Source: Thermodesulfobacteriaceae bacterium
GTDB taxonomy: Bacteria; Desulfobacterota; Thermodesulfobacteria; Thermodesulfobacteriales; Thermodesulfatatoraceae
DNA: 64,000 nt
Direction of reading: 5' to 3'
Assembly (NCBI GenBank): GCA_015494065.1
Contig: WGCA01000016.1
Coordinates: 1-64,000 of the forward strand
A program made the position numbers and the translations under genes. The notes below the pieces were generated by a model that saw nothing but the letters and a program-made list of their open reading frames with translations, was not told the DNA's origin and searched no databases. Each line of letters opens with the position of its first letter. Positions within the stretch are counted from its first letter, which is position 1. Shown here piece after piece: positions 1 through 39,354 of the stretch.

Positions 1-47
1 GTACCACATCTAGCTAAAATTAAAGGATTACTAGCAAAATCTACTTC

Positions 48-61
48 GGCATAAATTTTGC
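48..61 (+). promoter_or_regulatory. sigma-54 (-24/-12) promoter of the first PEP-CTERM gene
   Basis: The GG at 48-49 and GC at 60-61 are separated by exactly 10 nt, as required for RpoN promoters. The flanks GGCA and TTGCT match the consensus TGGCACG-N4-TTGCW, with mismatches at the first T and at the C and G of the -24 box. The GC lies 38 nt before the ATG at 100. Confidence comes mainly from the similar placement of matching sites before the other two PEP-CTERM genes of the window. Confidence 0.6.
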
Positions 62-99
62 TTGCAAAGAAAAAATAAAGCAAAACCGGAGAAAGTAAA

Positions 100-807
100 A
101 TGAGAGAAAAGAAGATAGCCTTAATGTTATTGTTAATTAATGCTATGTTTTATTTTTTCGAAATGGAAAAAATAACCAAAGCTACTCCTATTGAATTTTC
201 TGAAACTTTTTTAGGTTCCAAGGGAAACCATAATACTGATGATCATTTTGACTTAGAAGAAGGATGGAAGGCTATATTCGAATTTAAACTTTTCGATTTA
301 GGCGGTTATGCCATCTTGAGAGATGAACATAACAACATAATACAAGAAAAAATGCCCAGCTATGATGAAATCAGCTATGATCCCAATTCAAATTTACCTA
401 TTGAAGCATATTTGTCTTTCCAATTTTCTTCTGAGGATTTGGCTCCAGAAGAAATACAAATCAAAACAAGTTTTCTTGACGGAAATAAAGTTCTTTCTGA
501 AAAAACATATTGGCTAGGATATTGGTGGTTTGGTTATCATAGAAAATATGCCGATTTAACTATCGATTTAAAAGAAGAAGGAGTCTTAGATTATCTTAGG
601 GATGGACAATTTATCAGTATAGTAATTGCTCCTGAAGCTTTTTGTTTAATTGAAAATGATTTTTCTATAGAATGGGTTAACTTATCTTTAAAAGCCGATC
701 CTATACCTGAGCCGACGACTATTTTGTTGACCGGAATTGGGTTAGGTCTAGTTTATGGGATTATGAGGTTTAAAAGAACAACATATATTAATGGAGTTAC
801 CAAGTAG
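100..807 (+). CDS. PEP-CTERM sorting-domain protein
   Basis: Predicted exported protein of 235 residues, probably processed by an exosortase. A hydrophobic segment at about residues 5-22 looks like a signal peptide. The body matches no domain I know. The C-terminus has the tripartite sorting signal: PEPTT, a hydrophobic stretch with LLTGIGLGLVYGI, then basic RFKR. A GGAG ribosome site lies about 8 nt before the ATG. The gene is much more AT-rich than most of the window, which may mean transfer. About ten residues follow the basic cluster, more than usual, and the TAG stop lies in the first bases of a repeat element. The nearly identical sorting tail at 1214-2050 suggests the two are handled by the same exosortase, which is not in the window. 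The function of the body is unknown. Confidence 0.85.
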   Translation: MREKKIALMLLLINAMFYFFEMEKITKATPIEFSETFLGSKGNHNTDDHFDLEEGWKAIFEFKLFDLGGYAILRDEHNNIIQEKMPSYDEISYDPNSNLPIEAYLSFQFSSEDLAPEEIQIKTSFLDGNKVLSEKTYWLGYWWFGYHRKYADLTIDLKEEGVLDYLRDGQFISIVIAPEAFCLIENDFSIEWVNLSLKADPIPEPTTILLTGIGLGLVYGIMRFKRTTYINGVTK

Positions 808-1213: not shown

Positions 1214-2050
1214 TTAACTTCTCTTACGCCTCACAATACCGTAAACAAAGCCTAACCCCACCCCGGTCAATAAAACCGTAGCCGGCTCAGGCACAGGATT
1301 ACTCGGATTACCAGAAAAGGTTCCCGCTTCAATAAAAACGGCCGAATCGTAAATATAATCAGAGGTATCAGCGATCGCAATTTTCATATGATGTGTCCCC
1401 GGCGAAAGACCTAACAAACTGGCAACTAAAACCTTGGTAAATCCATCATATTGTACATCATAAGTTCCACTAAGATTACTTACAAAATAGGCGGAATTAG
1501 TATACTGATTTATAGTATTGACAGTTATTGGATCAGAAGTACCGGGAACCAGAGCAATATTGGTTCCGTCAACATAGAAAGCAAAAACGTCATTAAATGC
1601 ACTACCAACATATTCTTCATATTCTTCCGAAGCAAAAACAAAGTTAAAATACAAATTAGAAGTAGTAGTCTCAAAATCAAATTCCAAAACCGTAGCATCA
1701 TAAGTCTCGTAAGGATCTACCAAAATATCCAAATCACTATCACCAGACAATCCGTTATCAACACTATAATCTTCTTCATTATTAGGACCCACAGCACCTG
1801 CAGCTGAACCGGTGGTAAGAATGATTCCCTGATCAATACCTAAACCGGAAGAGAGACCGTCAGAAAAAATACCCACGGCGTCTAATGTTCCGGTAAAAGA
1901 GATATTTGAAACTGTAACCGTTGCGGGATCGATTATGGTATTAACCAAATCAGAAGCACCGGTAACAGAACCCACCGTTAAAGCATAAGCCCTTGTCACA
2001 ACCAAAAGCATTACTACTAGAATTCCTAAACAAAATTTCAATGGTTTCAT
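1214..2050 (-). CDS. Choice-of-anchor L domain PEP-CTERM protein
   Basis: Predicted exported surface protein of 278 residues. After a signal peptide (residues 1-23, ending in AYA) comes a choice-of-anchor L type beta-rich domain with the typical blocks GIILTTG and FNFVFASEEYEEYV, followed by AFNDVFAFYVDG. The C-terminus is a PEP-CTERM signal: PVPEPATVLLTGVGLGFVYG then RRKRS. Choice-of-anchor domains are named because homologues end in different anchoring signals. The start is well supported by AAAGGAGGT just upstream. A sigma-54-like promoter lies 34-49 nt before the ATG and a clear terminator follows the stop. The gene is AT-rich, like its neighbour at 100-807. The ligand and role are unknown; adhesion or an extracellular matrix role is only a guess. 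Confidence 0.9.
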   Translation of the reverse strand: MKPLKFCLGILVVMLLVVTRAYALTVGSVTGASDLVNTIIDPATVTVSNISFTGTLDAVGIFSDGLSSGLGIDQGIILTTGSAAGAVGPNNEEDYSVDNGLSGDSDLDILVDPYETYDATVLEFDFETTTSNLYFNFVFASEEYEEYVGSAFNDVFAFYVDGTNIALVPGTSDPITVNTINQYTNSAYFVSNLSGTYDVQYDGFTKVLVASLLGLSPGTHHMKIAIADTSDYIYDSAVFIEAGTFSGNPSNPVPEPATVLLTGVGLGFVYGIVRRKRS

Positions 2051-2083: not shown

Positions 2084-2099
2084 TGCAAAAAAGATGCCA
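2084..2099 (-). promoter_or_regulatory. sigma-54 (-24/-12) promoter of the choice-of-anchor L gene
   Basis: Read on the minus strand: TGGCATCTTTTTTGCA. TGGCA and TTGCA match the RpoN consensus at the -24 and -12 boxes and the GG-to-GC distance is exactly 10 nt. Only the C and G of the -24 box differ. It ends 34 nt before the ATG. A TTTCCA-N5-TGGAAA palindrome about 100 nt further upstream (2191-2207) could bind an activator, but this is speculative. Confidence 0.75.
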
Positions 2100-2315
2100 T
2101 CAAGAATGTTTTATGTTTCATAAAATTTTAAAAAATTGGCGATTTTAAAAAATGAATTCTTATAAATCCTGTTAATTAAAGAGAAAATTTTTTCCATATC
2201 GTGGAAATTTATTTCACATAAACCATCTTAAATCTTCAAATTGTAATTTTTTCTTCATTATTACTCAAAAATTTTCTAAAAAGAATAGATTGTCTGATTA
2301 ATGCAGAAAAGACCG
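2100..2315. other. AT-rich upstream region of the choice-of-anchor L gene
   Basis: No gene is seen. The stretch is very AT-rich with many A and T tracts, as is common for bendable DNA upstream of sigma-54 promoters. The only clear symmetry is TTTCCA (2191-2196) and TGGAAA (2202-2207). Confidence 0.4.
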
Positions 2316-37467: not shown

Positions 37468-38238
37468 CTACCCTTCCCGCCGTCTACGGCGCAAAAATAT
37501 GCTTACGGCGAAAAGGCCCGCCCCTGCCAAAAGGATGGAAGCCGGCTCGGGGGTGTGCGCCACCACCTCGCCGTAATCGTTACCACACTCCATGGTCCAG
37601 TGGATTTTTATGGAAGTAAACGGCTCATTAAAAAGAGCAAGGGGAATGGCGGCTTCGATGATATACCGGGGCAAATCAGGATCATCGGCCTTGTAAGCAA
37701 AATCGATAGTGTCTATTAAGGTGCCGCTTGCCATGCGGAAGGGATTGGAGATGGAGTGCTGATCATAATAAACATCTTGCCAGACCGTAACCCTGTAAAA
37801 ACCACCTAGGGTGGCACTCCTGTTATTGTCCCCATCAACATAATTGGAAATAACCAGGGCGTAGTCCCAACTGCCGTTAGCCCCGACGTCAAAGGCGATA
37901 TCCCCGGCGTCCCAACCATTGCGACCCTCTAGCGGGAAGCCCGTGGCAATGGCCACGTAAAGATTCTCATCATCAAAAGTAGCCAGGATGGCTTCAACAT
38001 CGTAATTTTGCCCTCCATATCCGGGCTCCACGTAGCCATCATTTTCTACCCAATCCTCCTGCCACACAAACACCCCTGGCACGCCAGGGTCCCAATTATT
38101 GTCGTTTTCACCAAAAGAAGAGGTATTTACCCCCCAATCCGAGAGGTCCCCGTCCAACGTAATGGCTAAGGCGCTGGCTCCAGCGGCCAGCCCCCAAAGA
38201 AAAACAACTACCCAAAACAAAGTCCAAACTCTCCTCAT
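37468..38238 (-). CDS. PEP-CTERM protein with DOMON/CBM9-like domain
   Basis: Predicted exported protein of 256 residues. Seen: a signal peptide (about 1-24, ending ASA), then ITLDGDLSDWGV near residue 27, a start typical of CBM9/DOMON-like carbohydrate-binding beta sandwiches, a middle with ENLYVAIATGFPLEGRNGWD and DIAFDVGANGSWDYALVIS, and a C-terminal sorting signal TPEPASILLAGAGLFAVS then FLRRRRREG. It is not AT-rich, unlike the two PEP-CTERM genes at the left end. A sigma-54 promoter lies 38 nt upstream and a strong terminator follows. The carbohydrate ligand is inferred only from the fold. Confidence 0.9.
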   Translation of the reverse strand: MRRVWTLFWVVVFLWGLAAGASALAITLDGDLSDWGVNTSSFGENDNNWDPGVPGVFVWQEDWVENDGYVEPGYGGQNYDVEAILATFDDENLYVAIATGFPLEGRNGWDAGDIAFDVGANGSWDYALVISNYVDGDNNRSATLGGFYRVTVWQDVYYDQHSISNPFRMASGTLIDTIDFAYKADDPDLPRYIIEAAIPLALFNEPFTSIKIHWTMECGNDYGEVVAHTPEPASILLAGAGLFAVSIFLRRRRREG

Positions 38239-38275
38239 CGGCCCGCCCCTTTAAATTTATTCAATGCTATTTTGA

Positions 38276-38291
38276 AGCAAAATGCGGGCCA
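38276..38291 (-). promoter_or_regulatory. sigma-54 (-24/-12) promoter of the third PEP-CTERM gene
   Basis: On the minus strand: TGGCCCGCATTTTGCT. It differs from the RpoN consensus TGGCACG-N4-TTGCW at one position only and has the exact 10-nt GG-to-GC spacing. It ends 38 nt before the ATG, leaving room for an AAAGGGG ribosome site. A TGAAATA-N9-TATTTCA inverted repeat lies just upstream (38301-38323). Confidence 0.88.
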
Positions 38292-38382
38292 AAATTGTCT
38301 TGAAATAATTTTAGGCTATTTCAGGGATCAAGACCAAAAGGCGAGAAAAATTTTTTCCTAATTTGATGGCAAAAATTTTTCC

Positions 38383-39354
38383 CTACCAGAAGAGTTTGAG
38401 ACGGATCTTTTTGAGTTCTTTTACGGTCTTAAGGGGAAGATAAGCGGGTATTTCCAGGCGGGTGGCCAGGTCTGCCACGGTTTTTCGAGCCTCGGTTTCG
38501 TCTCTGGCGTGCACCATGGTGTAAAGGTTGTAGGGCCATTCCGGGTAACTCTTTCTTTCGTAACAGTGGGTAATTTTTTTCTCACGGGCTAAAAATTTTC
38601 CCACCTCTTCTATCCGACCGGAAGGAACTTGCCAGGCCACCATGATATTTCCCTTAAGGCCGGCGCGGGTATGACGTATCAAACCGGCAAAACGCCGGAT
38701 AATACCCTGGGACAAACCTTCTTTGAGCCAGGAAAGGACTTCTTCTTCCTGAAGGCCCGCTTTGCGGGCGATTTCCTGAAAGGGCCTTGGGCAAAGGGGA
38801 AGGTCTTCCTGGGTCAACCTTACCAGGGTGATGGTCCTGGGGTCCGGGGGCGAAACTCGGGAAAAAGAGGTCTTAACTTCTAAATCCTGGCTCTCACCCC
38901 CGTCTTCCCCCAGCACGTACACCGCCGCGATGTGGAAGACCCGCTTTATGGGAAGGAGGAGGTATTTTTCTACCCCGGCCCGGGCCAAAAGGTCTGCGAC
39001 CGTCTCTTTCAGGTCCTCGCCCGGGGGGACCGCGATGGTAAACCAGAGGTTATAAAAATGGTCCCGCAGGTAATTATGGCTCACCCCTGGGTAGGAATTT
39101 ATGGTCTCCGCCGCCTGAGGAAGATTTTTTTCGGAGACCGCCGCCGCGACCAGGGTGGTCCGGTAACCCAGGGCGGCAGGGTTAAAAATGGCACTTATCT
39201 GGCGCAAAATACCTTCTCTTTTGAAGTTTAAGAGGCGCGCCAAGACCTCCTCTTCGGAAAGGGAAAGTCTCTGTGCCAGAGCCGCGTAGGGCCTGGCCTC
39301 CAGAGGAAAGCGCTGTTGTATTTCGTTTAAAAGAGCCCGGTCCGTGGCCTCCAT
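38383..39354 (-). CDS. ahbAB: Siroheme decarboxylase, AhbA-AhbB fusion
   Basis: Protein of 323 residues that decarboxylates siroheme to 12,18-didecarboxysiroheme in the alternative haem route of sulfate reducers and archaea. Two Lrp/AsnC-like halves are visible. The first (about 1-150) has an N-terminal winged helix and the active motif SHNYLRDHFYNLWFTIAV; the second (about 170-323) repeats this with THCYERKSYPEWPYNLYTMV. In most species AhbA and AhbB are separate proteins that pair up; here they are one chain. An Lrp-type regulator is unlikely because of the two active motifs. No other ahb gene is adjacent. Confidence 0.93.
   Translation of the reverse strand: MEATDRALLNEIQQRFPLEARPYAALAQRLSLSEEEVLARLLNFKREGILRQISAIFNPAALGYRTTLVAAAVSEKNLPQAAETINSYPGVSHNYLRDHFYNLWFTIAVPPGEDLKETVADLLARAGVEKYLLLPIKRVFHIAAVYVLGEDGGESQDLEVKTSFSRVSPPDPRTITLVRLTQEDLPLCPRPFQEIARKAGLQEEEVLSWLKEGLSQGIIRRFAGLIRHTRAGLKGNIMVAWQVPSGRIEEVGKFLAREKKITHCYERKSYPEWPYNLYTMVHARDETEARKTVADLATRLEIPAYLPLKTVKELKKIRLKLFW

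Follow-up and report, generated by a model that had tools for sequence, protein, structure and literature searches.

Is the near-perfect sigma-54 match at 38276-38291, just upstream of a PEP-CTERM gene, a promoter, and does it belong to a wider scheme that controls such genes? We addressed this in a stretch of 64,000 nt (the window), part of contig C16 of a 2.03 Mb host genome, and in 40 relatives, divided into those of the same genus and family (f1), a second family (f2, represented by G010) and a third family (f3). Our results favor, with a probability of about 85%, the reading that the site is the promoter of a PEP-CTERM gene in a dedicated sigma-54 regulon, where an activator would bind upstream and a degenerate activator-like protein, here called the pseudo-bEBP, would tune the response.

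The -24/-12 site and the PEP-CTERM genes

The features of the window that bear on the promoter are the following.

37468-38238, minus strand: PEP-CTERM protein gene, 256 aa, with signal peptide and HTPEPAS...RRRRR sorting tail
38276-38291, minus strand: sigma-54 -24/-12 promoter TGGCCCG-CATT-TTGCT of gene 37468-38238
1214-2050, minus strand: second PEP-CTERM gene, with a choice-of-anchor L domain (NF038133 241 bits, TIGR02595 22.3 bits)
2084-2099, minus strand: sigma-54 promoter TGGCATCTTTTTTGCA of gene 1214-2050, consensus match with 2 mismatches
100-807, plus strand: further PEP-CTERM gene (TIGR02595 20.6 bits)
47-62, plus strand: sigma-54-like site CGGCATAAATTTTGCT of gene 100-807, consensus match with 3 mismatches

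The 256-aa protein has a hydrophobic N-terminal segment and the C-terminal sequence HTPEPASILLAGAGLFAVSIFLRRRRREG, and it scores above the curated cut-offs of both TIGR02595 (18.2 bits; cut-off 16) and PF07589 (25.4 bits; cut-off 20.7). Single-sequence structure prediction was poor (pLDDT 42), and a sequence search of the PDB gave no match at E <= 0.001. The gene directly upstream, at 38383-39354 on the minus strand, encodes a fused siroheme-decarboxylase-like (NirDL/AsnC-type) domain pair; in several relatives, too, the PEP-CTERM orthologue is preceded by the end of a gene like this one.

On the minus strand, positions 38276-38291 read TGGCCCGCATTTTGCT, which combines the GG and GC dinucleotides and the correct spacing with a near-consensus match to TGGCACGN4TTGCW. 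The original prediction placed this site one base off the consensus and 38 nt before the start codon; both coordinates and the mismatch count were reproduced, with the ATG being that of the ORF at 37468-38238, and a transcription start near 38265 can be inferred. Within the window it is the sole site with at most one mismatch, and such a site arose in only 3 of 5000 dinucleotide shuffles of the intergenic region (144 nt, extended by 8 nt). The consensus should nevertheless be interpreted with caution, since allowing two mismatches gave 9 matches in the window where 6.7 are expected, and the whole genome held 75 matches against 67 for the reversed pattern; with counts this near chance, a consensus match alone is no evidence. 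From this lack of enrichment it could be argued that the match is a chance look-alike and that a housekeeping sigma factor transcribes the gene. We consider this very unlikely, because the site is kept in all orthologues, is strongly enriched before PEP-CTERM genes and co-occurs there with palindromes (see below).

Orthologues of gene 37468-38238 were found in six relatives (G003, G004, G006, G007, G009 and, from another family, G010). Their promoter flanks diverge and the -24 GG and -12 TTGC are retained, these elements being invariant in seven orthologues. Absence of the elements from orthologues in close relatives had been named beforehand as the observation that would speak against the promoter, and what we found is their retention in six of six. 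Position, conservation and context thus make 38276-38291 a convincing predicted promoter despite the chance-level frequency of the bare consensus.

The same control was proposed for all three PEP-CTERM genes of the window, and each indeed has a sigma-54 site, with one, two (TGGCATCTTTTTTGCA) and three (CGGCATAAATTTTGCT) mismatches. The remark that the third gene is not AT-rich was also borne out, its GC content being 52.3% versus 39.2% and 31.8% for the two genes at 0.1-2 kb. Those two genes (32-39% GC, in a window of 54% GC) adjoin positions 850-960 near the contig start, where a short 'cattgcgaggagc...gcgacgaagcaatc' sequence of a kind frequent in dispersed repeats is found. Elsewhere in the host genome, a fourth PEP-CTERM gene on contig C54 has a weaker sigma-54 site (AGGCATGGTTTATGCT) together with palindromes, and a likely fifth, cut by the end of contig C63 (L166:2534-2976), has the full arrangement of promoter and palindromes. 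A likely PEP-CTERM gene cut by the start of contig C40 in G007 (L163:1-340) likewise has one or more palindromes and a sigma-54 site.

Tandem palindromes upstream of the promoters

Most PEP-CTERM genes have a palindrome upstream, with the consensus GGGAAAAATTTTTCCC and frequently in two copies. Those of the window, with centres counted from the start point near 38265, are listed with the inverted repeat that was originally noticed.

38343-38358, minus strand: GGAAAAAATTTTTCTC, predicted proximal activator site, a conserved palindrome with 2 mismatches, centred at about -86
38368-38383, minus strand: GGGAAAAATTTTTGCC, predicted distal activator site, a palindrome with 1 mismatch, centred at about -111 and overlapping the final base of the stop codon of the upstream gene
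2181-2196, minus strand: predicted activator palindrome TGGAAAAAATTTTCTC of gene 1214-2050, consensus match with 3 mismatches
38301-38323, no strand assigned: TGAAATA-N9-TATTTCA inverted repeat, judged incidental

Because the contig begins 46 nt before the -24 element of gene 100-807, the corresponding region of that gene lies outside the sequence. The original prediction advanced the TGAAATA/TATTTCA repeat as a possible activator site, an idea we reject: a 7-bp inverted repeat of this kind occurs in 452 of 1000 shuffles of the region (45%), and only the closest relative, G006, shares it. The accompanying suggestion to search the region 80-150 nt upstream for a conserved activator site led elsewhere, namely to the tandem GGGAAAAATTTTTCCC palindrome, to which binding is predicted.

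Several observations set these palindromes apart from chance. No best and second-best pair as good as that at 38343-38358 and 38368-38383 appeared in 1000 shuffles. In the host genome and its relatives, 49 PEP-CTERM genes have upstream DNA of sufficient length; a palindrome with at most two mismatches is found at 27 of them, against 0/49 for a reversed word of the same composition. Neighboring copies tend to lie about two helical turns apart (26 of 36 spacings at 19-25 bp). The core G-AAAA-WW-TTTT-C is nearly invariant and the GG/CC flanks weaker among 56 sites, a profile that is descriptive only since the sites were chosen by their similarity to the consensus. In G010 the palindrome is weaker and present in four of eight genes. 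Counts of single palindromes in the host genome (17 versus 14 reversed) are uninformative alone, and specificity resides only in pairs and in the combination with the promoter.

That combination was compared with 326 other genes from f1/f2 genome loci. A sigma-54 site with at most two mismatches precedes 26 of the 49 PEP-CTERM genes and 9 of the 326 controls (Fisher p = 3e-19), which, with all recovered orthologues keeping the site, upholds the proposal that PEP-CTERM genes share sigma-54 control. For palindromes with at most three mismatches the figures are 33/49 and 9/326 (p = 4e-27). Both elements together (at most three mismatches in the sigma-54 site and four in the palindrome) were found at 30/49 PEP-CTERM genes, at 1/326 controls and at none of the 73 controls whose upstream DNA is free. 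At these cut-offs one element or both are missing from about 40% of the 49 genes, in some cases because the gene is broken and in others not. One PEP-CTERM gene, on contig C86 of G007 (L374), may have a broken frame, the module lying a long way before the 148 aa that survive.

Part of the module was also searched for genome-wide, as GAAAWWWWTTT followed after 41-101 nt by GGCMYN5TTGC. The search returned 31 matches, which fall at 27 loci and come from 10 of the 11 PEP-positive f1/f2 genomes; the reversed pattern gave none in 24 genomes. By position, about 24 of the 27 loci are PEP-CTERM genes, including the 38276-38291 promoter and gene 1214-2050; two more are ORFs that a contig end truncates and that begin like signal peptides, and one precedes amtB (named by eye), a gene that sigma-54 ordinarily controls elsewhere. 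With a slightly stricter palindrome, the search of 380 kb of background matched gene 1214-2050 alone. Thirteen f3 genomes yielded two matches, in or beside unrelated genes. PEP-CTERM genes themselves occur in 10/10 f1/f2 relatives and in 1/30 f3 genomes, and the DNA of each of these hits was taken into the analysis. The exosortase loci examined showed no palindrome near a -24/-12 site. Taken as a predicted unit, a sigma-54 promoter with two upstream palindromes marks most PEP-CTERM genes in the family, plus the pseudo-bEBP gene.

Two other roles for the palindromes have to be weighed. They could belong to the upstream gene, as terminators or as hairpins in its mRNA, given that the distal copy touches that gene's stop codon at 38383 and that GGGAAA/TTTCCC is able to pair in RNA. 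However, palindromes are also found where the upstream gene is divergent, as at the pseudo-bEBP gene in G004 and G007 and at many PEP-CTERM genes (by a rough ORF rule, and so supportive only), no T-run follows them, and the copies come in phased pairs; a role in the RNA is therefore extremely unlikely. Alternatively, they could bind a separate factor, such as a repressor or a nucleoid protein, with the sigma-54 promoters served by a bEBP that has no conserved site or acts from solution. Their AT-rich centres, the variable distance to -24 (57-188 nt) and the lack of a link between the palindrome and any bEBP are in keeping with such a factor. Yet tandem palindromes two turns apart, 60-190 nt before a -24/-12 element, are the classic bEBP layout, and the module is specific to PEP-CTERM genes, which makes a separate factor improbable and argues for sites of a sigma-54 activator.

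Candidate activators and a co-regulated pseudo-bEBP

The host genome has one rpoN (C54:25717-26193, PF04552 209 bits) and an exosortase gene (C33:5863-6576, TIGR02602 228.8 bits), the latter being present once per PEP-positive genome. Twelve bEBP-type matches are present as well. The regulator known from Proteobacteria, PrsR, was rejected as the activator, as no protein in the sets of 12 and 3 genomes searched reached the TIGR02915 cut-off (best about 452 versus 502.6 bits). The TTTACA motif of Haft and co-workers was rejected as the upstream site, being found at 2 of 34 genes, the same as in the reversed control. It could still be hypothesized that this is the PrsK/PrsR regulon of Proteobacteria, its binding site having drifted, as the logic is the same there, with a sigma-54 site and an upstream, at times repeated, motif about 60 nt off (PMC1569441). 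In view of the PrsR scores and the TTTACA counts, we regard this as improbable.

When the bEBPs of G000, G004, G010 and three PEP-negative genomes were placed in one tree, two host-genome proteins stood out as having counterparts in f1/f2 and none in the f3 genomes sampled. The first is a receiver-less bEBP of 347 aa (C19:18370-19410; L233:2871-3914, plus strand), 20 bp upstream of an NDP-sugar epimerase gene. Orthologues in eight further f1 genomes and in G010 are 59-99% identical to it, against a full-length identity of at most 52% elsewhere; none turned up in G009, an incomplete genome, and the protein's own gene has no palindrome in its upstream DNA. The gene lies near galT-like and stand-alone receiver genes, and its phylogenetic profile is that of the PEP-CTERM genes. 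The second, a 680-aa PAS-bEBP with the same presence/absence profile, sits inside a cytochrome operon that it probably serves. From these profiles the 347-aa protein is our favored candidate for activator of the PEP-CTERM regulon, a doubtful assignment at present, and the activator may instead be a regulator that f3 genomes keep for other targets. In G005 (C1, L172:359-3254) a histidine kinase/bEBP pair lies directly 3' of a PEP-CTERM gene. The clade of this bEBP occurs in G004, G005 and G010 and has no member in the host genome, so we rejected it as the general activator.

Palindrome pairs without an adjoining PEP-CTERM gene led to one further gene.

C54:19513-20709 (L376:1514-2710, minus strand in L376): pseudo-bEBP of about 400 aa, with orthologues at L160, L161, L162, L181, L182, L262, L263 and L185

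The protein, encoded at C54:19516-20709, occurs in 9 of 10 family genomes, with 45-97% identity to the host copy, and is absent from G010 and the third family; ordinary bEBPs were among the matches listed when the named genomes were scanned for it. Its AAA+ domain is that of sigma-54 activators (PF00158, E = 3e-33), with the Walker A motif GxxGxGKE retained in 9/9 sequences. In all nine, the GAFTGA loop is replaced by unrelated residues, the DE of Walker B has become EN, ED or EG, and the first finger arginine and the sensor II arginine are lost, the second finger arginine being kept or changed to lysine. There is no Fis-type DNA-binding domain, the protein ending in a conserved T-x-S-R tail, and the N-terminus looks like a receiver in which no phosphorylatable Asp is evident. 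One or more palindromes and a -24/-12 site precede 8/8 pseudo-bEBP genes with readable upstream DNA. The gene is near a kdsA-kdsC-lptCAB-rpoN cluster in G000 and G005 (rpoN by profile match, the other names by eye) and elsewhere in G004.

A predicted regulon and its relation to known systems

According to our hypothesis, RNA polymerase with sigma-54 would wait as a closed complex at the -24/-12 element until an activator bound to the palindromes turned on the PEP-CTERM genes with the module together, and their products would then be exported, with the only exosortase of the genome carrying out the processing. The same signal would induce the pseudo-bEBP, which could tune the activator by forming mixed oligomers with it, in the simplest form as negative feedback. 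Feedback control by the pseudo-bEBP is what we infer, and the sign could be either. The most specific version, in which a PEP-CTERM regulon outside the PrsR clade uses a different activator at tandem GGGAAAAATTTTTCCC sites and a co-induced, dead and non-DNA-binding pseudo-bEBP in mixed rings brakes surface-protein output, is a tentative proposal, with the odds somewhat against it as a whole.

In 2006, Haft et al. described how PEP-CTERM genes of Proteobacteria are preceded by sigma-54 sites and a motif of the TTTACA type; they tied these to PrsK/PrsR, saw the motifs only in Proteobacteria as then defined, and stated that more PEP-CTERM regulators and motifs were yet to be discovered (PMC1569441). 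The present genes share with that PEP-CTERM/EpsH regulon the sigma-54 site, the upstream and sometimes repeated motif, the single PEP-CTERM genes and the exosortase. They differ in having GGGAAAAATTTTTCCC in place of a 17-nt motif ending in TTTACA, no PrsR above the cut-off and a co-regulated pseudo-bEBP. With PrsR and TTTACA absent, sigma-54 control of PEP-CTERM genes here differs from the proteobacterial version, and GGGAAAAATTTTTCCC would be one of the further motifs foreseen in 2006.

In Aquincola tertiaricarbonis, the -24/-12 element of pepA (TGGCAC / CTGCTT) has been mapped and its rpoN dependence demonstrated by experiment (PMC9850573). A promoter of this type before a PEP-CTERM gene is common to both, read here from sequence, whereas that organism has PrsK/PrsR and a previously predicted enhancer, with no GGGAAAAATTTTTCCC-type palindrome reported. 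DVUA0057 of Desulfovibrio vulgaris is a bEBP that binds upstream of several sigma-54 PEP-CTERM genes (PMC3333781, PMC4641369). It is set apart by its description as a receiver-type response regulator from an exopolysaccharide operon, with a predicted motif common to DVU0110. Modulation of one bEBP by another through mixed oligomers is known from HrpR/HrpS, VnfA1/VnfA3 and FleQ/FleT (PMC9542535). Only the pseudo-bEBP lacks GAFTGA, Walker B, arginine finger, sensor II and DNA-binding domain together, and unlike those pairs it itself belongs to the regulon.

Our literature search found no paper on a PEP-CTERM sigma-54 regulon in the present group. The logic is known; what is new, as far as could be found, is the palindrome site, the pseudo-activator and the apparent lack of PrsR. 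Sigma-54 control of exosortase-sorted proteins is thereby extended to a family apparently without PrsR, which suggests that more than one activator has served to couple the same targets to sigma-54. The palindrome offers a sharp DNA motif for tracking down the activator and its signal, and the pseudo-bEBP a natural experiment in which an AAA+ activator has been stripped of its ATPase, sigma-contact and DNA-binding parts. Judged from these genomes, the control scheme of Proteobacteria recurs here with different parts.
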